64,000 nucleotides of DNA, from positions 62,001 through 126,000 of the forward strand of contig JAJPHC010000037.1 of NCBI GenBank assembly GCA_021325515.1, given 5' to 3'. The notes beneath the pieces are model-generated. The model did not search any database. It had not been told where the DNA came from and saw only the letters and a program-made list of their open reading frames with translations. The stretch is from Acidobacteriota bacterium (GTDB lineage Bacteria; Acidobacteriota; Thermoanaerobaculia; Gp7-AA8). Of the stretch, positions 34,760 to 45,548 are shown in pieces (the stretch's first letter is position 1; every line of letters starts with the position of its first letter). A program made the translations under genes and the position numbers.

Positions 34760-34788
34760 TTGCCTGTTGCAGGGAACCCGACTACAAT
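34760..34788 (+). promoter_or_regulatory. Candidate sigma-70 promoter of the tRNA-Arg/tadA/tRNA-Ser cluster
   Basis: TTGCCT (34760-34765) and TACAAT (34783-34788) with a 17-base spacer. The predicted start is about 54 bases before the tRNA-Arg gene. Spacing and both boxes are good for a stable-RNA promoter. Confidence 0.6.
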
Positions 34789-34848
34789 CCGCGGCCCGGC
34801 CTGCTGGTGGAATGTACGTTTTATCCGGCAGGTTACGCAGCAATGCTC

Positions 34849-34925
34849 GCACCCATAGCTTAATTGGATAGAGCATCTGACTACGGATCAGAAGGTTCGA
34901 GGTTCGAGTCCTCGTGGGTGCACCA
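34849..34925 (+). tRNA. tRNA-Arg, anticodon ACG
   Basis: Seven-base-pair acceptor stem GCACCCA/TGGGTGC, D arm, anticodon stem TCTGA/TCAGA around loop CTACGGA with anticodon ACG, T loop TTCGAGT, discriminator A and an encoded CCA. Adenosine 34 of this tRNA is the normal substrate of TadA, which converts it to inosine so that CGU, CGC and CGA can be read; the tadA gene begins 55 bases downstream. Confidence 0.96.
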
Positions 34926-34979
34926 AACGAATCCAGGCTGACGGCGGGCAAAGACGCCCGCCGTTGTACTCTTTGAGAA

Positions 34980-35486
34980 ATGAATCAGGCGCAGTGGCCC
35001 TCGGAAGTCATCGCCAACGCGATGAATGAGGCTTTTGCGCTTGCCGAGGAGGCGGCGGCCGACGGGGAGATCCCGATCGGTGCGGTCGTCATCGATCGTG
35101 ATGGGCGGATCATCGGCCGCGGACGCAATCGCCGCGAAGCGGGTGATCCCCTGGGACACGCCGAGATCTACGCGATCCGCGAAGCAGCGGAAGCGATCGG
35201 CGACTGGCGGCTCGAAGGAACGGCGATGTGCGTGACCCTGGAGCCTTGCGCGATGTGCGCAGGCGCTCTCGTGAATGCGCGCGTCGAGCGATTGATCTTC
35301 GCCGCTCATGATCCAAAGGCGGGCTTCTGTGGCTCGCTCGGAAACCTCGTGCAGGACGCGCGTCTCAATCACCGGTTGGAGATGGAGACAGGACTCATGG
35401 AGGAGCGCTCGAAAGAGCTGCTCCAGAATTTTTTTCGACGGCTGCGCGAGCGAAATCGTGGAACGGAGAGGTGGCAGAGTGGTTGA
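34980..35486 (+). CDS. tadA: tRNA adenosine(34) deaminase TadA
   Basis: Deaminates the wobble adenosine of tRNA-Arg(ACG) to inosine, an essential step. 168 residues, the usual length, with the cytidine-deaminase-type zinc site: HAE in LGHAEIYA supplies the ligand His and the catalytic Glu, and LEPCAMCAGAL the two cysteines. The substrate tRNA gene lies 55 bases upstream and a good promoter precedes it, so both are probably on one transcript. The last codons (RWQSG and stop) are read from the 5' part of tRNA-Ser(CGA), a 22-base overlap. Confidence 0.95.
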   Translation: MNQAQWPSEVIANAMNEAFALAEEAAADGEIPIGAVVIDRDGRIIGRGRNRREAGDPLGHAEIYAIREAAEAIGDWRLEGTAMCVTLEPCAMCAGALVNARVERLIFAAHDPKAGFCGSLGNLVQDARLNHRLEMETGLMEERSKELLQNFFRRLRERNRGTERWQSG

Positions 35487-35554
35487 ACGCGGCGGTCTCG
35501 AAAACCGTTATACCTTCACGGGTATCGGGGGTTCGAATCCCCCCCTCTCCGCCA
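35465..35554 (+). tRNA. tRNA-Ser, anticodon CGA
   Basis: Acceptor stem GGAGAGG/CCTCTCC, anticodon loop CTCGAAA with anticodon CGA (reads UCG), long variable arm typical of class II tRNA, T loop TTCGAAT, discriminator G and an encoded CCA; 90 bases. Its first 22 bases also encode the C terminus and stop codon of TadA. Confidence 0.95.
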
Positions 35555-35599: not shown

Positions 35600-35690
35600 G
35601 GAGAGATGGCCGAGTGGCTTAAGGCGCACGCTTGGAAAGCGTGTGTACGTTAATCGCGTACCGTGGGTTCGAATCCCACTCTCTCCGCCA
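35600..35690 (+). tRNA. tRNA-Ser, anticodon GGA
   Basis: Acceptor stem GGAGAGA/TCTCTCC, anticodon stem CACGC/GCGTG with loop TTGGAAA and anticodon GGA (reads UCC and UCU), long variable arm, T loop TTCGAAT, encoded CCA; 91 bases. It lies 45 bases after tRNA-Ser(CGA) and 36 bases before the end of the convergent giant gene. The three tRNAs and tadA run in one direction and may form one transcription unit. Confidence 0.95.
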
Positions 35691-35726: not shown

Positions 35727-37130
35727 TTACTGCTGCGCCGGGACGTATGTCGCATCGAGTGTGTTTCGATCGACCACCGATCCGTACGCCGTGACTTTTC
35801 CATCTCCATCGATGACGCGCACGCTGATGCGCGCGTTGTAGACGTTGCCCACGCCGAGGTTTCCGAGGACGGGAAGCTGAACGAACTCGAACGCGCCGAG
35901 CGGGACATCGACGACAGGGACGACCTTCGAATCCGGCAGAACGACCGACAGCTCGACTGTGGCCGGCTTCCCGGTGACTTCCGCGATTCCGATGTTCGTG
36001 CGATAGCGCGGCGATTCCTCGAGCTGCAGGATCTGCAGCGGCTTTGCGCTCGCCGTTCCCACCGAATCGGCGGGAGTGACTGCGGGGATGAATTGCCCGA
36101 CGCTCCCCTTCTCGGTCTGATTGTAGGTTCGGGCGCTGACGACGAGCGGCGCATCGGCCGGCGTCGTCACGTGCAGCACACCACCGACGTTGTCGAGACC
36201 GAACGCGGAGTGGAGCACGTTGTCGAACGCCTTCGTCTCGCCGGGATTGATCGTGATCCGCTGCGAATCGCCATGTCCAGCGCTCGATGCCGGATAGAAC
36301 GTGAGCGTCGCCGGCTGCGGCGCATTGCCGCTGTTGAGCACACGCACATCGCTGCGCCACGACGCGCTACCGGAATTGAGATCCGCGATCCCCGCGAGCA
36401 CGAATCGCGACGAGCCTCCGCCGGAAGGAACTCCGGCGATGAAGAATGGATCCTGCGTCTTGTTGTCGACGACCGAGGCGTATGCGGTGACGCGCCCGTC
36501 TCCGCCCGTTACCTGCACTTCAATGTGTCCGTTCGTCAGAGAAACATTGTTCTGCGCGAGAAACGAGTTGAGCTGCTTCTGCTCGCCGGCGCGCAGCGAC
36601 AGCGGAACGTCGAGAACCTTCGAGCCGCCTCCGTCGAATACGCTCAACACGACGTTCGCCGTCTTGTTCGCGGCTTCGACGAGTCCGAGATTCGTGCGGA
36701 AAAGCTCGGATTGGGCGATCTGTTGAAGTGTAAGCAGCGAGCCGCTCTTGCCGATGAAACTCGAGAATGGTGTTGCCGGGATGAACTGCCCGAGCGTGGA
36801 GTTGCCGAGCGCGTTGAACGTCTTGCTCGAGACGATGGTCGAGATGTTGTTGAGGAGCGGCTTGCCATTCGCGTCGAGTGCCTGAATCGAAAGCGAACCG
36901 CTCGCCGAATCGCCTAGCGGTCCGACGCCGAACCATGCGCGGACGAAGTCATCGAGTGCGGTCGTCGCTCCTGCGTCGATCGTGATGAGAGTCTGCTTCA
37001 CCGACGACGATCCGCTGTTGAACGAGAGTTGATATTTCTGAGGCTGCGAAGCGAGGTTCGCGATCCGAATGTCGCTGCGCCACGAGGAATTGCCGCTCGC
37101 CAGGAATCCGAGCGACGGAATCAGCAGCGC
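35727..37130 (-). repeat. Duplicated C-terminal domain of the giant protein (two copies)
   Basis: Copy one covers about 36409-37130 and copy two 35727-36408. Both share the order SWRSD(I/V)R, an RT-N-G motif, GQFIPA and DG(D/R)..VTAY(A/G)SVVD(N/R). Divergence at DNA level shows the duplication is old. A domain of this kind is placed C-terminally, where a sorting or attachment role would be expected, but that is inference. Confidence 0.75.
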
Positions 37131-40100
37131 GCTCTGCGATGCGGAGTTGAGCGAGGACGGCGTCACCGGCGTTACGACATTGACGGAGACGGGAACGGAA
37201 GTCGTCGATGATCCGTCGCTGCCGTATCGCCCGGAGACTCCGCTCGTTCCGTACACGACGAGCACCGTTCCGGTCCAGGTTCCGTTCGCGAGATGGCTGG
37301 CATCGAGCGAGATCGTGATCGTGGTTCCCTCCGGTCCGACGAGACCGCTCACGGGCGTCAGCGAGATCCATGGCTTGTCGGCGGTCGCGATGAACGAGGT
37401 CGTGATGCCGGGGAGCCCCGGAATGAAGATGGTGAACGTCACCGGCTGCGTGCTGCCCAGCGGTACGTTCACGCTCGGCGACGGTGTGTCAGGCGCAGGC
37501 ACAGGAACCACGACGATGGCGATCGGCGTGGAGAACGGACCGAGCGCACCGCACGCCGTCACCGCACGAACGCGATAGAAGAACCGCGTCGGAACCGTCA
37601 CCTGCTTCACGAACGTCTTCTTCAATGCACCCGTCGTTGACGTGGTGAACCCGACGAAGTTCGAAGTCGACGCCTCCTGCACTTCGTACGTCACGGCATC
37701 CGCAACAGAGGTCCACTCGAGTGTGAAGTTCTGCCCCGTCGTCATCTGACCCGGGATGCCTGCGATGGGCGCCACGGTGGGTGCCGTACAGACGGAGAAG
37801 CTTCCCGAAGACGATGTCTGCCCGCTGCATCCGGCGTCGCCGATCGCTTCGACCAGCCAGGTGTAGTTGCCGTTCGGCAGGCTCACTTCGGCGGTCGTGT
37901 CGGAGGTGCTGATGGTGACGGGCAGTCCGCTGCCACTGATGATCACGTTGTAGCTGATCGCGTTGGGCACGCTGGTCCACGCGAGCGAGACCGGCGATGT
38001 CACGGTGGCTCCCGCAGCCGGCGTCACCAACTGCGGGCCCTGCGGCGGGCACTGCACCGGCGGAGCAATGGTGACCGTCGCCGATCCCGTGTTGTTCGCC
38101 GGTTGAGGATCGGTCGCGCCGCTGCTCACCGTCGCCGAGTTCGTGATCGATCCACCCTGTGCCTGGACGAAGTAGGTCGACTGAATCGTGACGGTCTGAC
38201 GCCCGGCGAGCGAAGCAATCGTGCAGGGGAACGCCGTCACACAGGCGCCTGCATTCCCGATGAACACGAGTCCGGACGGTGTCGGATCCGTGACGACGAC
38301 ATTGCTCGCGGTGAACGGACTGTTGTTCGTGATGAAGATCTGGAACGTGATCGTGTCCGACGCGTTCGCATTCGCCGGACCGTTCTTGACCGCGATGAGG
38401 TCGATCGTCGAGGAGGTTGCGAGCGGCGTGGTAACCGTCGAGGAGTTGTTCGTCGTGTTGCCGTCGTTCGTCGAGCTGCTGACTGACGCGGTGTTGGCGA
38501 TCGTGCTGCCGCTGTAGTTCGAAGGAATGCTGAACGTCGACGTGATGGTGGAGCTCTGGCTCGCGGCGAGCGTGCCGAGGCTGCAGGGGAACGGTGTCGT
38601 GCACGCGCCGCTGTTCGACACGAACGTGAGTCCGGCTGGAGCCGGATCGGAGACGAAGACGTTCGCCGCACTCAGCGGTCCGTTGTTCGTCACCGTGATC
38701 GTGTAGCTGATGTTCTGTCCGGGGACGAATGACGCCGGACCGCTCTTGACGATCTGAACATCTGCGCTCGCGGTCACGGGAGTTGTGACGGAGGCCGAGT
38801 CGTTCGACGAATTCGGATCGATTGCGGCCGACGTCACCGAGGCGGTGTTGGTGATCGACGGCGAAGCGAAGTTCGACGGGATGCTGTACGTCGCGTTGAT
38901 CGTCGCACTCTGTCCGGCGGCGAGCGCGCCGACGTTGCAGGGGAAGTTGCTCGTGCAGGCACCGCTGTTGGCGACGAAGGTGAGACCAGCCGGTGGTGTG
39001 TCGTTCACCGTGACGCTTCCCGCGGTCGACGGGCCGAGGTTCGTGACCGTCACGACATAGGTCACGACTTGTCCGGGCGACGCAGAAGGAGGACCGCTCT
39101 TCGTGATCGAGAGATCAGCCTGCTGGACGATGTTCGTCGTCGCGGCCGACGAGTTGTCGGCGTTGTTCGGATCATTCACGGAAGAAGCAACGGACGCGGT
39201 GTTCGTAATCGACGCGCCGGTGAAGTTCGAAGCAACGGTGTACGTCGATGTGATCGTCGCGATCTGTCCCGCGGCGAGCGTGCCGAGGGAGCATGGATAG
39301 GCGCTCGTGCAGGCGCCGCTGTTCGAGACGAACGCGAGGCCTGCCGGCGTGACATCGCTGACGACGGTGCTGGTCGCCGGCGACGGGCCGTTGTTCTTCA
39401 CGGTGAGCGTGTACGTCACGTTCTGTCCGGGGCTCGCGCTCGCCGTGCCCGTCTTGGTGATGGTGAGGTCGGACTGTGCGCCGACGTTCGTCGTAGCGCT
39501 GGACGTGTCGTTCGTGTTGTTCGGGTCCGTTCCGAAGGCATCGGCGACGGAGGCGGTATTCGTGACGTTGCCGGCGAAGTTCGCAGACGTGCTGTACGTC
39601 GACGTGATCACCTTCACCTGTCCCGCAGTCATCGAGCCGAGTGAGCAGGGGTAGGCCGTCGTGCAGGCTCCGGAGTTGGAGACGAAAGTCAGATTCGCAG
39701 GAGTCGGGTCGGTGACGACGACACCGTTCGAGGTCGACGGACCGTTGTTCGTGACGGTGACGGTGTAGACGATGTTCTGTCCCGCGACCACACCACCCGG
39801 GCCGCTCTTCACGATCTGGAGATCGGCCACGGCGTTCACGGTTGTCGTGCTGCTGGCGGTGTTGTTGGAGCTGTTGCCGTCGTAAGGCGACGAGACGGTG
39901 GCGCTGTTCGTGATGCTGCCGCTGGCGGCCGGCGCATTCATCGTGAACGTCAGCGCCGGATAGGACGACGTGCTCGCGATTGCATCCGTCGACGTGCAGG
40001 TGATCGTTCCACCGGATGGTGCGCCGCAGCTCCAGCCGGTGCCGGAACCGCTTGCTCCCGTCACTCCTGCGGGCAGTGTATCGACCACTGTCGTCGTCCC

Positions 40101-42680
40101 CGCGGTGGTGTTCGGCCCGTTGTTCTGAATCGTGGCTGTATAGCTGAGCGGTGCAGCGGCGTTGACGGAGGCCGGGCCGCTCATCGACGCCGCGAGATCC
40201 GTCTGCGGAGCGACGACGGTGAGGTTGAGAGCCGTCGGCGTGTAGCCCGACGCAATCAGGGCCGGCAGGTTATACGTGGCGAAATCGCCTGTTCTTGATG
40301 CAAACGTGAAGACTGGGAAGACCGTGCCGGTGGAAGGCGAGTAATTGAGATTCGCCTTGAAGGTGCCGTCGAGTGTCGCGGCGCCGCTCACCGTGAATGT
40401 GTCGAAGGAGCCCGCCCCGTCGAGATCGATCGTCATCTTGCCGGTCGAGCCCTGAGTGTAATTGCCGGTTAGATTGATCGTTCCCGCCGACGAGCCGCCG
40501 GGCTGGACCTCCGCGTTGTTGTTCTGCAGATCTCCGGTGATGGTTCCGGCTCCATCGAGAACACCGCCGTTCAGAAGCATGGGATTGGTGACTTTGATGT
40601 TCCCCGCTCCGAGCGTCGTCGTTCCGGACGACTGCGTGTAGGTGCCGGTGAAATGGAGAGTCCCGATCTGAGCCTTCACGGTGCCGGCATTGGTGAAGTC
40701 GGGGTCGATCACCGTTGTGCCGGTGCCCGCGGACTTCTGGAACGTCCCGTTGTTCGTGATCGAGCTCGAGCCGAGGATGAGGGCGTCCGTCCGGGGCCGT
40801 TTCGTGCGCGCACTGCCGACGAAGAAATTGATGATCGGCTGGTCGGTCTGGATGTCGAACAAGCCGTTGTTCGTGATGGTGGCCGCGCTCGTCGTCATGC
40901 TGTTCGGAGCGGCGGCGCTGTAGATGATCGTGCCGTCGTTCTGCAGATTGAGCCCGCCCAGCGTCATGCTGCCGTTGGCGCAATCAATGGTTAGAGTCGC
41001 TCCGTTCGCGACGTCGAACGTGGAGTTGCCGTTCAGCGATCCGGAGGAGATCGTCCCCGTGCCCGTCACCGTGAAGGTGTTCTGCACGGTAAGGCTGCCG
41101 CTCGCCAGGAGTAGGTCGGTCGTCGACGCGGATCCCGATGTCGTGAGCGAACCGCCGCTGATGGAGGTCGTCTGTGCGCTGTAGCTGCTCGCGATGCTCG
41201 TGCTCCCGGCCGGAAACGCGATCGTGCCATCCGACTGGACGTAACCGGAGGAGGTGATCGTGGTCGATCCCGCGGAGAACGCGAGCGTCGATCCCGTGCT
41301 GACGAAGAACGATCCGCTGCTCGTTCCCGATCCGGCGATGTCGAGTGTTCCGGATGACACATTCAAGGTCGCGCCGTTCGCGAACGGAGGATTGATCGTG
41401 GAGGTTCCTGTCCCGCCGTACTTGCTCAGATAGCCGTTGGGATAGAGGTTGAATCCACCGGCCGACCCGCCGTCGTTGATGGAGCCATCATTCGTGAAAT
41501 AGAAGTTTCCGTAGACCGAGAACGTCCCGCCGTTCGACAGGACGAGAGCGGTCGCAGCCGACGGGGCGTAATTGATCGTGCCGTAGTCGTTGAAACTGCG
41601 GCCGTCGAGAATCATGTTTCCGGCCGCTCCGTCCAGCGTGCCGGTTCCTCCGCCGTTCAGTTGCGTTCCGCCGCTGCCGGTCATCGTGCCACCGCTCCAG
41701 GTGAGGGTGTTCATCGTGAGAAATCCGGAGCCCTGCAGCGTGCCTGCAGTCATCGTGAACCCTGCAGGCGATGTGACGCCGCCGATGGACAAGGTGCCGC
41801 CGGTCACACTGAGCGTGCCGCCGCCCGAAACGACGCCGTTCGCCGTCAGTGTGTAGGTGCCCGACGGAAAGTCGGCGGTAGTTCCCGCGGAGATCGTGAG
41901 AGGACCGTCCCCGGTTCCGCCGCCCGACAGATGGAGATTGCCGAGCAGCACAGAAACGTTCCCCGACGACGTCGTGTTGAGCGCGCAGGAGATCGTGGAG
42001 TCGCCGCCTCCCTGCGAGAGCGTGCCATTGTTCGTGGTCGTGTTCGTGCCGTTGACCGTGGCACTGGCGAGCGACAGAGTCCCGCTGCTCTGAACCGTCA
42101 GGCTATTGTTCACGGTCATCGTGCCGCCGTTCACGCCGAGCGTGCCGCCGTTCGAGATCGTGCTGGCGCCGTCGATATTGAGAGCCGCACCCGTCTGCAC
42201 ATCGACATAGCCGCCGTTCACGGAGAGGGACGATCCGTTGTTGAACGTCAGAGATCCGCCATTGGCGATGGTGAGCGTGCCGCCTGGCTCGACGATGAGC
42301 GTGGTTGCACTCGCCATCGATCCTGCGCCTGCGAGCGTGAGCGATCCGCCGGACTGAATGTCGATCGTGCAGCCGGCACAGCTCATGTTGAGCCCGACGA
42401 TCGGGTTTGGAATCGACGAGTTGACGATGAGAGTGGTGGGTGATGCGTTGGTGTTCGTTGCGGAATCGCCGGGCGCACATCCGGGAAATCCGCCGGCCGG
42501 CGACCAGACCGCGCCGGTCGTATCCGTCCAGTTCGCGACAGGTGGCGGCGCACTTCCGGTGACGAAATAGCTGCTCGGGATGCACACCGCGAGAGCTACC
42601 GAGCCGATCGCCGAGACGATCACCAGAAAGGAGAGGAGAGTTGCCAGAACGACGGTCGGACGGCGTGATGCGTTGCGCAT
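35727..42680 (-). CDS. Giant secreted repeat protein: beta-helix, six DUF11 domains, duplicated C-terminal domain
   Basis: 2317 residues. Signal peptide with a hydrophobic core (LATLLSFLVIVSAIGSVALA). Residues about 90-820: short Gly/Ser/Thr/Asn-rich repeats (NGGTLTVN type) expected to form a beta-helix. Residues about 827-1539: six DUF11 repeats of about 119 residues starting ADLQIVKSG or similar; five carry the Cys pair SGAC..xPC. Residues about 1545-1840: fibronectin-type and BACON-like domains (ADKPWISLTPVSG). Residues about 1851-2317: two copies of a domain with SWRSD, GQFIPA, RTN(L/I)G and GKVTAYGSVVD. No LPXTG, PEP-CTERM or beta-barrel anchor is visible. Probably an extracellular surface or matrix protein; function unknown. 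Confidence 0.9.
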   Translation of the reverse strand: MRNASRRPTVVLATLLSFLVIVSAIGSVALAVCIPSSYFVTGSAPPPVANWTDTTGAVWSPAGGFPGCAPGDSATNTNASPTTLIVNSSIPNPIVGLNMSCAGCTIDIQSGGSLTLAGAGSMASATTLIVEPGGTLTIANGGSLTFNNGSSLSVNGGYVDVQTGAALNIDGASTISNGGTLGVNGGTMTVNNSLTVQSSGTLSLASATVNGTNTTTNNGTLSQGGGDSTISCALNTTSSGNVSVLLGNLHLSGGGTGDGPLTISAGTTADFPSGTYTLTANGVVSGGGTLSVTGGTLSIGGVTSPAGFTMTAGTLQGSGFLTMNTLTWSGGTMTGSGGTQLNGGGTGTLDGAAGNMILDGRSFNDYGTINYAPSAATALVLSNGGTFSVYGNFYFTNDGSINDGGSAGGFNLYPNGYLSKYGGTGTSTINPPFANGATLNVSSGTLDIAGSGTSSGSFFVSTGSTLAFSAGSTTITSSGYVQSDGTIAFPAGSTSIASSYSAQTTSISGGSLTTSGSASTTDLLLASGSLTVQNTFTVTGTGTISSGSLNGNSTFDVANGATLTIDCANGSMTLGGLNLQNDGTIIYSAAAPNSMTTSAATITNNGLFDIQTDQPIINFFVGSARTKRPRTDALILGSSSITNNGTFQKSAGTGTTVIDPDFTNAGTVKAQIGTLHFTGTYTQSSGTTTLGAGNIKVTNPMLLNGGVLDGAGTITGDLQNNNAEVQPGGSSAGTINLTGNYTQGSTGKMTIDLDGAGSFDTFTVSGAATLDGTFKANLNYSPSTGTVFPVFTFASRTGDFATYNLPALIASGYTPTALNLTVVAPQTDLAASMSGPASVNAAAPLSYTATIQNNGPNTTAGTTTVVDTLPAGVTGASGSGTGWSCGAPSGGTITCTSTDAIASTSSYPALTFTMNAPAASGSITNSATVSSPYDGNSSNNTASSTTTVNAVADLQIVKSGPGGVVAGQNIVYTVTVTNNGPSTSNGVVVTDPTPANLTFVSNSGACTTAYPCSLGSMTAGQVKVITSTYSTSANFAGNVTNTASVADAFGTDPNNTNDTSSATTNVGAQSDLTITKTGTASASPGQNVTYTLTVKNNGPSPATSTVVSDVTPAGLAFVSNSGACTSAYPCSLGTLAAGQIATITSTYTVASNFTGASITNTASVASSVNDPNNADNSSAATTNIVQQADLSITKSGPPSASPGQVVTYVVTVTNLGPSTAGSVTVNDTPPAGLTFVANSGACTSNFPCNVGALAAGQSATINATYSIPSNFASPSITNTASVTSAAIDPNSSNDSASVTTPVTASADVQIVKSGPASFVPGQNISYTITVTNNGPLSAANVFVSDPAPAGLTFVSNSGACTTPFPCSLGTLAASQSSTITSTFSIPSNYSGSTIANTASVSSSTNDGNTTNNSSTVTTPLATSSTIDLIAVKNGPANANASDTITFQIFITNNSPFTASNVVVTDPTPSGLVFIGNAGACVTAFPCTIASLAGRQTVTIQSTYFVQAQGGSITNSATVSSGATDPQPANNTGSATVTIAPPVQCPPQGPQLVTPAAGATVTSPVSLAWTSVPNAISYNVIISGSGLPVTISTSDTTAEVSLPNGNYTWLVEAIGDAGCSGQTSSSGSFSVCTAPTVAPIAGIPGQMTTGQNFTLEWTSVADAVTYEVQEASTSNFVGFTTSTTGALKKTFVKQVTVPTRFFYRVRAVTACGALGPFSTPIAIVVVPVPAPDTPSPSVNVPLGSTQPVTFTIFIPGLPGITTSFIATADKPWISLTPVSGLVGPEGTTITISLDASHLANGTWTGTVLVVYGTSGVSGRYGSDGSSTTSVPVSVNVVTPVTPSSLNSASQSALLIPSLGFLASGNSSWRSDIRIANLASQPQKYQLSFNSGSSSVKQTLITIDAGATTALDDFVRAWFGVGPLGDSASGSLSIQALDANGKPLLNNISTIVSSKTFNALGNSTLGQFIPATPFSSFIGKSGSLLTLQQIAQSELFRTNLGLVEAANKTANVVLSVFDGGGSKVLDVPLSLRAGEQKQLNSFLAQNNVSLTNGHIEVQVTGGDGRVTAYASVVDNKTQDPFFIAGVPSGGGSSRFVLAGIADLNSGSASWRSDVRVLNSGNAPQPATLTFYPASSAGHGDSQRITINPGETKAFDNVLHSAFGLDNVGGVLHVTTPADAPLVVSARTYNQTEKGSVGQFIPAVTPADSVGTASAKPLQILQLEESPRYRTNIGIAEVTGKPATVELSVVLPDSKVVPVVDVPLGAFEFVQLPVLGNLGVGNVYNARISVRVIDGDGKVTAYGSVVDRNTLDATYVPAQQ
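38066..40202 (-). repeat. Six tandem DUF11-coding repeats
   Basis: Within the giant gene, six units of about 355 bases encode consecutive DUF11 domains that begin near TDLAASMSG, ADLQIVKSG, SDLTITKTG, ADLSITKSG, ADVQIVKSG and IDLIAVKNG. The inner copies are most alike, as expected from unequal crossing-over. Read counts across this region could vary in assemblies. Confidence 0.85.
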
Positions 42681-42794: not shown

Positions 42795-42906
42795 TGGGGT
42801 GAGCTCGGGTCCTGTGCAGCAGGAGCATCGAACCTCGTCAGGTCCGGAAGGAAGCAGCGATAAGGTGCCAAACCTGCGTGACACAGATCGGCCTGGGCTC
42901 TTCCGA
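42795..42906 (+). ncRNA. ffs: Signal recognition particle RNA (4.5S, small bacterial type)
   Basis: The core GGTCCGGAAGGAAGCAGC (42841-42858) is the strongly conserved apical loop region bound by Ffh. The flanks pair to a long hairpin (GAGC at 42801 with GCTC at 42897; an outer GCCCGCT/AGCGGGC stem could extend it to 42789-42912), without the Alu domain of long SRP RNAs. Position upstream of dnaX-ybaB-recR is the classical one. Exact ends are estimates. Confidence 0.92.
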
Positions 42907-43016: not shown

Positions 43017-44573
43017 ATGAGTTACCAGGCGCTCGCACGCAAGTATCGCCCGCAGTCGTTCCGCGACATCGTCGGTCAGGAGACGACCGTTCGAACTCTG
43101 CAGAACGCGATCGAATCGAAGCGGATCCATCACGCCTATCTCTTCTCCGGTGTGCGCGGGGTCGGCAAAACGACGTCGGCGCGCATCCTGGCGAAAGCGC
43201 TGAACTGCGTGCAGGGACCTGCTGCGGAGCCGTGCAACGAATGCACGATCTGCCGGGAGATCACCGAGGGCATCGATCTCGATGTCCGCGAGATCGACGC
43301 GGCGACGTATACCGGCGTCGACAACGTGCGCGAGCTGCGCGATGTCACGCAGTACGAGCCTGCGCGCGACCGCTATCGCGTCTTCATCATCGATGAAGCG
43401 CACATGCTGTCGATGCAGTCGTGGAATGCACTGCTGAAGCTGATCGAAGAGCCGCCCGATCATGTGATCTTCATGTTCGCGACGACGGAGATGAACAAGG
43501 TCCCGCAGACGATCATGTCGCGGGTTCAGAAACTCATCCTCCGCAAGATTTCGCTCGATGAGCTGATCGCGCGTCTCGACCAGATCTGCAGGGCGGAAGG
43601 CATCGAGGCGACGCGTGACGCGCTGGAGATCGTTGCGCGGCGCGGAGAGGGAAGCGTCCGCGATGCGCTCTCGCTGCTCGATCAGATCATCGCCTTCGCC
43701 GGCCGCTCGATTTCCGCCGCCGACGTCGCAACGGTCCTCGGTCTCTCCGACACGAATTTCTTCGCGCGCATCGTGACGTCGATCGGCGAAGGCGACCATG
43801 CCGCCATTCTCGAGACGCTCGCCGAGGCGGCGGAAGGCGGGCGCGATTTCAAGATCCTCTATCGCGATCTGCTGAATTTCGTTCGCAATCTGCTGCTGCT
43901 CAGCGGCGGTGCCGGCGAGTCGATGCTCGCGGTCTCGCCCGAAGATCTGAAGACGATTCAGAGCGTCGCGGGGCGCTTCTCGTACCACGACCTGCTGCGC
44001 ATCGCGAATCTGCTGCTGCGCGACGACGAAACGGTCAATCGCGCCGAGCATCAGCGGCTGGCCGTCGAGATCGCGCTGCTGAAAGCAGCAACCTTCCCCA
44101 AACTGAAATCGGTGGAAGAGGTCCTCTCGTCGAAGGGCGGCGTGTCCGTCCCGCCGGCATCCTCACCATCGCCCCCGCCCTCGCAACGTACACAGCGGAG
44201 AGACGAGCCTGCAGTGAGCGGTAAGGCCTCCGGCGACCTCTCTGCGCTGATCGAAAAACTTCAGAAGTCCCGCCCGCTCATCGCCGGCTACGTCGATCAC
44301 GCGATTTCAGGAAGCAGGGATGGGAACCGCATCACCTGGACGTTCAACGACTCGACGTTCGCGGATTACGTCAGCGAAGCGAAGAGCACGATCGAGCAGC
44401 TTGCGTCCGAGGTGTACGGCGAGAAGGTCGTCGTGGAGACGAAGCTTGCGGGAGCAGAACCGCGGGATCGCCGCACCGAGGACAAGGCGCCGGCAGTGCG
44501 CGAAGATCCGGTGCTCAAGGCATTCCAGAAGCATCTCGGCGGCGAGATCGTCGAGAGCAGGAGAACGAAATGA
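43017..44573 (+). CDS. dnaX: DNA polymerase III subunit gamma/tau
   Basis: DnaX is the clamp-loader ATPase of the replisome. 518 residues: [20 protein letters not shown] at the N terminus, Walker [21 protein letters not shown], the zinc-binding CNECTIC region, Walker [12 protein letters not shown] and sensor segments, then a variable tail ending in a basic-rich C terminus. No A-rich slippery heptamer for a programmed gamma/tau frameshift was noticed. The ATG has no clear Shine-Dalgarno sequence and is directly preceded by the inverted repeat. The stop overlaps ybaB by four bases. Confidence 0.96.
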
Positions 44574-44954: not shown

Positions 44955-45548
44955 ATGACCGCTCCCCCACTCGCGAATCTGATCAACGAGCTGACGAAGC
45001 TGCCTGGCGTCGGAGGCAAATCTGCGTCGCGGCTCGCGTACCACATCCTCAAGCGCCCCATGATCGAAGCGGAGGCGCTCGCGCAGGCGATTCTGGATGT
45101 GAAGACGAAAGTGTTCCGCTGCTCGATCTGCAACAACATGACGGATGTCGAGCCGTGTGCGATCTGCAGTGATCCGCGCCGCGATGCATCGACGATCTGC
45201 GTGGTGGAAGAGGCGTTCAACATCTCGACCATCGAGCAGACGCGCGATTTCAAAGGTGTGTTTCACGTGCTCCTCGGCGCGCTCTCGCCGTTGAAGGGGA
45301 TCGGCCCGCAGGACATCGACGTCAATGGATTACTGAAGCGCATTCGGGACGGAGCGATCCGCGAAGTCATCATCGCCACGAATCCGAATGTGGAAGGCGA
45401 AGCGACGGCGCTGTACATCGCACAGCAGCTCCGTTCGACCGGCGTGAAAACCACCCGGCTCGCGTTCGGGCTGCCGGTGGGTGGCGACCTCGAATACGCG
45501 GATCAGGTCACGATGTCGAAGGCCCTCGAAGGACGGCGGGAAATCTAA
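44955..45548 (+). CDS. recR: Recombination mediator protein RecR
   Basis: RecR forms a ring with RecO or RecF that loads RecA at gaps. 197 residues: N-terminal helix-hairpin-helix LTKLPGVGGKSASRLAYH, a four-cysteine zinc finger CSICNNMTDVEPCAICSD, and a Toprim domain with CVVEEAFNIS and ATNPNVEGEATALYI. All family elements are present. An 85-base gap to ybaB holds a strong hairpin that ends directly before the ATG. Confidence 0.96.
   Translation: MTAPPLANLINELTKLPGVGGKSASRLAYHILKRPMIEAEALAQAILDVKTKVFRCSICNNMTDVEPCAICSDPRRDASTICVVEEAFNISTIEQTRDFKGVFHVLLGALSPLKGIGPQDIDVNGLLKRIRDGAIREVIIATNPNVEGEATALYIAQQLRSTGVKTTRLAFGLPVGGDLEYADQVTMSKALEGRREI

Follow-up and report, generated by a model that had tools for sequence, protein, structure and literature searches.

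Gene order and its conservation

Why should the gene for a tRNA stand directly in front of the gene for the enzyme that is predicted to edit it? The question is raised by the window analyzed here (64,000 nucleotides of an Acidobacteriota bacterium, contig JAJPHC010000037.1, positions 62,001 to 126,000 of the forward strand), in which tRNA-Arg(ACG) is followed by tadA. A sequence-only reading of this DNA proposed that the two genes are co-transcribed from a promoter ahead of the tRNA, that enzyme supply is thereby tied to substrate supply, and that unprocessed tRNA may feed back on tadA. The features of the locus (window coordinates) are the following:

34760-34788, + strand: sigma-70-like promoter TTGCCT-17-TACAAT upstream of tRNA-Arg, from a consensus scan
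34809-34835, + strand: another promoter-like element (ECF/SigR-like), GGAAT-N18-GTTA, with 13 nt between its end and tRNA-Arg
34849-34925, + strand: tRNA-Arg(ACG); ARAGORN and Rfam agree
34939-34966, + strand: GC-rich hairpin with the core CGGCGGGC...GCCCGCCG, about -21 kcal/mol, boxB-like or weak-terminator-like
34970-34985, + strand: boxA-like element TCTTTGAGAAATGAAT, overlapping the tadA start codon
34980-35486, + strand: open reading frame of tadA, predicted tRNA adenosine-34 deaminase of 168 aa, with the ATG at 34980 and the stop ending at 35486
35465-35486, + strand: overlap of tadA and tRNA-Ser(CGA), in which the last 22 nt of tadA are the tRNA 5' end
35465-35554, + strand: tRNA-Ser(CGA); ARAGORN and Rfam
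35600-35690, + strand: tRNA-Ser(GGA); ARAGORN and Rfam
42803-42901, + strand: small SRP RNA (ffs); Rfam
43017-44573, + strand: dnaX, continuing the ancestral tadA–ffs–dnaX–recR block
44955-45548, + strand: recR

ARAGORN, Rfam and the open reading frame coordinates agree on the placement that the sequence-only reading gave, with 54 nt (34926-34979) between tRNA-Arg(ACG) and the tadA ATG on the same strand. The open reading frame at 34980-35486 is a TadA-type deaminase by sequence and the predicted A34 editor of tRNA-Arg(ACG). The HAE and PCxxC zinc motifs are present in it (the latter as PCAMC), in the PDB it matches tRNA adenosine deaminases best (7cph, 2b3j, 2nx8, 1z3a), and its top NCBIfam family is TadA PRK10860, at 135 bits, below the curated cut-off of 150. 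The codons CGU, CGC and CGA are read by tRNA-Arg(ACG) and its A34-to-I editing. The window's own genome has 46 tRNA genes by the tRNA scan, with 44 distinct ones typed; one gene with the ACG anticodon was found among them and the other tRNA-Arg genes are CCG, CCT and TCT, so that the three codons rely on tRNA-Arg(ACG) and its editing.

The next question is "do the relatives keep this arrangement?" Our survey covers 81 genomes, and a tadA of the same taxonomic order is found in 17 of them, 16 of family f1 and one of f2; two f1 draft genomes gave no convincing tadA match. tRNA-Arg(ACG) lies immediately 5' of tadA on the same strand in all 17, and so does the complete order tRNA-Arg(ACG)–tadA–tRNA-Ser(CGA)–tRNA-Ser(GGA) lie on one strand in all 17, where the family genomes are of common ancestry, so that these counts are not independent, and every comparison is made with draft genome sequences. 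The chance of finding a random tRNA gene 200 nt or less upstream on the same strand, as estimated from genome size, is about 1 in 40,000 genomes. The adjacency is far beyond chance, and what had been noticed in one stretch of DNA is kept in every relative of the order with a tadA.

Downstream of the tRNA-Ser genes, a gene of 2317 codons with many DUF11 repeats (35727-42680, minus strand) parts tRNA-Ser(GGA) from ffs, dnaX and recR. SRP-RNA-like sequence lies directly 3' of tRNA-Ser(GGA) in several relatives, and the DUF11 gene is probably an insertion into an ancient block. This older block is tRNA-Arg–tadA–tRNA-Ser(CGA)–tRNA-Ser(GGA)–ffs–dnaX–recR, and the unit is a tRNA-bearing version of the ancient tadA–ffs–dnaX–recR order.

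Outside the order but within the class, the adjacency is sporadic (L173, L187, L203) and most other genomes are without it. We also consider 80 broader loci, which were picked by similarity to the query and whose proportions are no estimates of frequency. Nine of them have the adjacency, including five Myxococcota (L031, L034, L035, L061, L102), the Acidobacteria locus L033 (which seems to lie on the contig of L173), Nitrospirae L053 and Planctomycetota L089; in Elusimicrobia L088, tRNA-Arg(ACG) lies 400 nt from tadA. The five Myxococcota loci have a fuller cluster, tRNA-Ser(TGA)–tRNA-Ser(GCT)–tRNA-Arg(ACG)–tadA–tRNA-Ser(CGA)–tRNA-Ser(GGA).

These comparisons bear directly on the proposal that co-transcription ties the supply of TadA to that of tRNA-Arg(ACG), with feedback through unprocessed tRNA. 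The sole ACG tRNA found here adjoins tadA in every member of the order with a tadA, and the recurrence of the adjacency in other phyla would fit the proposal as well. Five Bacillota loci (L036, L038, L045, L057, L068), however, have tRNA-Arg(CCT) upstream of tadA (at 36-44 nt in four and 544 nt in one), a tRNA that is no TadA substrate; the adjacency is absent from most other genomes of the class, and in the window a stable hairpin stands between the tRNA and the start codon. Because tRNA-Arg(CCT) occupies the same slot in the Bacillota, enzyme–substrate logic is not needed for the order. Enzyme–substrate pairing by itself is no explanation of the gene order, and we consider the proposal very unlikely.

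Transcription of the unit

The consensus scan, which is of limited sensitivity, gives 34760-34788 as its sole promoter-like site and finds none in the gap between tRNA-Arg and tadA or before the tRNA-Ser genes. A good promoter ahead of tRNA-Arg was part of the sequence-only reading, and it is found not only here: a -10 element (TAGAAT or TACAAT) lies 56-95 nt before tRNA-Arg in 16 of the 16 family genomes examined. Co-transcription of the tRNA and tadA, as first proposed, has good support in the sequence, namely the lack of a promoter-like site in the gap, the presence of the arrangement in every relative of the order that has tadA, and a gap of 11-12 nt from the tRNA end to the ATG in two of these relatives (L011 and L013, of genus g7).

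A scripted motif search places GGAAT-N18-GTTA 40 nt before tRNA-Arg in the window and at 38-40 nt in 13 of the 16 f1 genomes. We take this element to resemble the promoters of ECF sigma factors of the SigR/SigH type. With a spacer of 17 or 18 nt, it precedes five of the 44 tRNA genes of the window's own genome (shuffle mean 0.01), the others being tRNA-Ala(GGC), tRNA-Ala(CGC), tRNA-Pro(GGG) and tRNA-Glu(CTC); across this genome there are 15 copies versus 5 for the control. The pattern suggests that an alternative sigma factor acts on tRNA genes.

The gap between tRNA-Arg and tadA

We turn to the gap itself, whose hairpin and boxA-like motif are absent from the sequence-only reading. In 14 of the 16 f1 genomes it holds an invariant stem (CGGCGGGC/GCCCGCCG) whose loop varies and, after this, TC[T/A]TTGA, which leads up to the start of tadA. 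The hairpin is absent in L011 and L013, where TCTTTGA comes directly after the tRNA CCA. The heptamer TC[T/A]TTGA is found in the gap of all 17 genomes (shuffle mean 0.17, maximum 2), mostly 3 nt before the ATG, and the motif of the f2 genome (L017) is TCATTGAAAGCTGAAC. The consensus of the tadA start region reads TCTTTGAcAgATGAATCAGG.

What is this element? The stretch TCTTTGAnAnATGAAT that follows the hairpin and overlaps the tadA start codon matches the boxA of the rrn leaders of the same genomes. Between the element of the window and the rrn-leader boxA of its own genome, TCTTTGACAACTGAAT, 14 of 16 positions are identical. The own-genome assembly has no 16S match; its rrn leader, with the boxA and the 16S start sequence, lies at a contig end (L251). 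The 16S leader of another genome (G009) reads GGTTCTTTGACAACTGAATAGG, which is the expected rrn boxA.

The pattern TCTTTGANARNTGAAT has 14 matches in the 17 genomes (about 84 Mb), five at tadA, nine in rrn-type leaders and none in other places, and its reversed control has 0; in most of the nine rrn-type leaders, the 16S start follows within about 210 nt downstream. When two or fewer mismatches to the rrn boxA are allowed in ten genomes, 20 sites result, of which nine are rrn-type, six are at tadA and five are elsewhere, with 2 for the control. A matrix derived from nothing but rrn boxA sequences was run over 111,818 positions around the locus, and its eight highest scores all fall on the tadA site. 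The boxA-like start region is retained in at least 11 genera; beyond TCTTTGA the conservation is loose in L007, L011-L013, L015 and L016, and ATGAATCAG, which is part of the conserved stretch, encodes the TadA N-terminus. Among the 44 tRNA leaders of the own genome there are 2 boxA-like motifs, which is not above chance, so that boxA is no general feature of tRNA leaders here.

Two further occurrences are recorded. A second TC[T/A]TTGA stands shortly before tRNA-Ser(GGA) in six of the 17 genomes (L003, L005, L006, L007, L009, L017; shuffle mean 0.6), and the Ser–Ser gap of the window itself is without TCTTTGA. A boxA-like sequence, TCTTTGACATTGTGAA, stands in the leader of the tRNA-Thr(TGT) tRNA cluster in the own genome (L267; G000:C42:7554-7569, minus strand); a search for this variant across the family gave an exact match in the own genome only.

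In E. coli, boxA is enough for recruitment of the rrn antitermination factors, and the signals occur a second time before 23S (PMC10250234). A boxA near the start of suhB represses suhB translation via Nus factors, not by simple occlusion of the Shine-Dalgarno sequence (PMC5725501). From the match to the rrn boxA and this published work, we infer a loading site for Nus factors in the boxA of tadA. If the gap is regulatory at all, the evidence points to a putative boxA (Nus-factor) element instead of to unprocessed tRNA, which the sequence-only reading had entertained.

Alternatively, the hairpin might serve tRNA-Arg as an intrinsic terminator or attenuator whose T tail is poor; a read-through fraction would give a little tadA mRNA, and TCTTTGA could be the remnant of the T tract. 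This would explain how little enzyme is made from a strong tRNA promoter; the hairpin with its T-containing tail satisfies a terminator scan, and several single tRNA genes of the own genome end in similar hairpins, that of tRNA-Ala with an equally poor T tail. The tail of the gap hairpin, however, scores 0.6-1.5 versus 3.4-4.7 for six of the seven other own-genome tRNA terminators scored, so that the hairpin, if a terminator, is probably leaky. The notion of TCTTTGA as a mere T tract is further weakened by its persistence where the hairpin is lost and by the match to the rrn boxA, which continues after the T tract with A-R-n-TGAAT and is almost without other copies genome-wide. We regard termination as a rather unlikely account of the gap. 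A separate candidate, that the hairpin is a genome-wide repeat, is rejected, the stem being found at only six places in 5.4 Mb.

The 3' end of tadA

At its other end, which the sequence-only reading did not remark on, tadA has no stop codon before tRNA-Ser(CGA). The protein ends in …ERWQSG-TGA, with the stop supplied by the D-loop of the tRNA. The 22-nt overlap is present in 10 of the 16 f1 genomes, and in the remaining ones tadA stops 3-37 nt before the tRNA. When the trait is placed on the TadA tree, six changes are counted, with repeated gain and loss; the overlap is therefore recurrent but not fixed, and it may be tolerated rather than selected. With the stop inside tRNA-Ser(CGA), RNase P cleavage at 35465 would strip the stop from the tadA mRNA and leave a nonstop message. 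The tadA 3' end should be the one place where tRNA processing directly affects tadA.

A separate overlap of 10 nt, with the tadA stop inside tRNA-Ser(GGA), occurs in family f8 and in L098 (titled Thermoanaerobaculia). The loci with this overlap are L024, L026, L028-L030, L098, L172 and L175-L178.

It is also conceivable that nothing at either end of tadA is regulatory, that is, that the unit is an ordinary ancient gene order with default co-transcription, TCTTTGA a translation-start context and the tRNA-Ser overlap a harmless by-product of packing. The link of tadA to tRNA-Ser(CGA) is far commoner than that of tRNA-Arg to tadA and is widespread among phyla at different spacings, the overlap has come and gone several times, and a different tRNA-Arg fills the slot in the Bacillota, all of which agree with such an account. 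It has to face a tadA start that is nearly identical to the rrn boxA and is retained across those 11 or more genera, and we find it unlikely.

A proposed mechanism

The reading that we prefer, to which we give about an even chance, is a mixed operon of tRNA and mRNA in which tadA carries a Nus-factor boxA. The operon would comprise tRNA-Arg(ACG)–tadA–tRNA-Ser(CGA)–tRNA-Ser(GGA), ancestrally together with ffs–dnaX–recR, with transcription from the promoters ahead of tRNA-Arg. In the gap before tadA it would carry an rrn-type signal, hairpin then boxA, of which the boxA overlaps the translation start. NusB–S10 and other Nus factors would most likely bind this boxA on the nascent RNA; transcription would then continue across tadA and reach the tRNA-Ser genes, in front of which no promoter is visible. 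The boxA also overlaps the region where the ribosome binds, and for this reason its occupancy probably limits translation of tadA as well, as for suhB in E. coli, so that only a small amount of this low-abundance enzyme would be made from a strong tRNA transcript. Between antitermination and translational repression as the main effect of the boxA, the sequence favours neither. At the 3' end, translation of tadA and RNase P maturation of tRNA-Ser(CGA) would be mutually exclusive on each transcript. What is seen directly is the gene order, its conservation, the boxA match and the overlap; co-transcription, the binding of Nus factors with its effect, and the conflict with RNase P are inferred. 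The stronger statement, that tadA in this family is a target of the Nus complex via its start-codon boxA and that maturation of tRNA-Ser(CGA) destroys the tadA message, is put forward tentatively, and we think it doubtful as a whole.

Comparison with known systems

In Bacillus subtilis and others, the order is tadA–scr(ffs)–dnaX–recR. The window has the same neighbourhood of tadA, SRP RNA, dnaX and recR; it differs in the addition of tRNA-Arg(ACG), tRNA-Ser(CGA) and tRNA-Ser(GGA), and in the large reverse gene that splits the block.

The gap in front of tadA is like the boxB–boxA–boxC leader of E. coli rrn (PMC10250234), having a hairpin and then a boxA within a few nt, and like the rrn spacer copy before 23S (PMC10250234), where the signal likewise comes after a tRNA gene and ahead of another gene. 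The putative tadA boxA matches the rrn boxA of the same genomes. Unlike the rrn signal, it precedes a protein gene and overlaps the start codon, with no equivalent of boxC identified.

Like the tadA element, the suhB boxA of E. coli (PMC5725501) lies only a few nt from the start region of a protein gene with a role in translation, and it is conserved in a family. The tadA case differs in that it concerns another gene in a distant clade, inside a tRNA operon, and in that most tadA family members have no recognizable Shine-Dalgarno sequence. In the parts consulted of the gammaproteobacterial Nus survey, suhB, prsA, rpsJ, parE-like toxins and ribH are named, and tadA is not (PMC5725501). Our search of the open-access literature found no report of a boxA at tadA or of the tadA/tRNA-Ser overlap.

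How bacterial A-to-I editing is regulated is unclear according to a 2026 study of E. coli (PMC13170351). If true, the tadA start with its conserved rrn-type boxA would be a concrete control point joining tRNA editing to ribosome synthesis, at which tadA and the tRNA-Ser genes behind it are set by the same signal as rRNA synthesis. Nus regulation of protein genes has been surveyed in the Gammaproteobacteria, and tadA would be one more Nus target, from outside that group.

The overlap has its counterpart in selB and selC, where the tRNA-Sec gene lies inside or overlaps the selB reading frame and the same nonstop conflict has been proposed (PMC8124441). As in that system, the tadA reading frame extends into the tRNA gene behind it, tRNA processing would leave the mRNA without a stop, and the overlap is gained and lost among relatives. 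Unlike selB–selC, the overlap is only 22 nt and tRNA-Ser(CGA) is not a substrate of TadA. The tadA/tRNA-Ser overlap adds to selB/selC another bacterial example of a transcript that should give either the tRNA or the protein.
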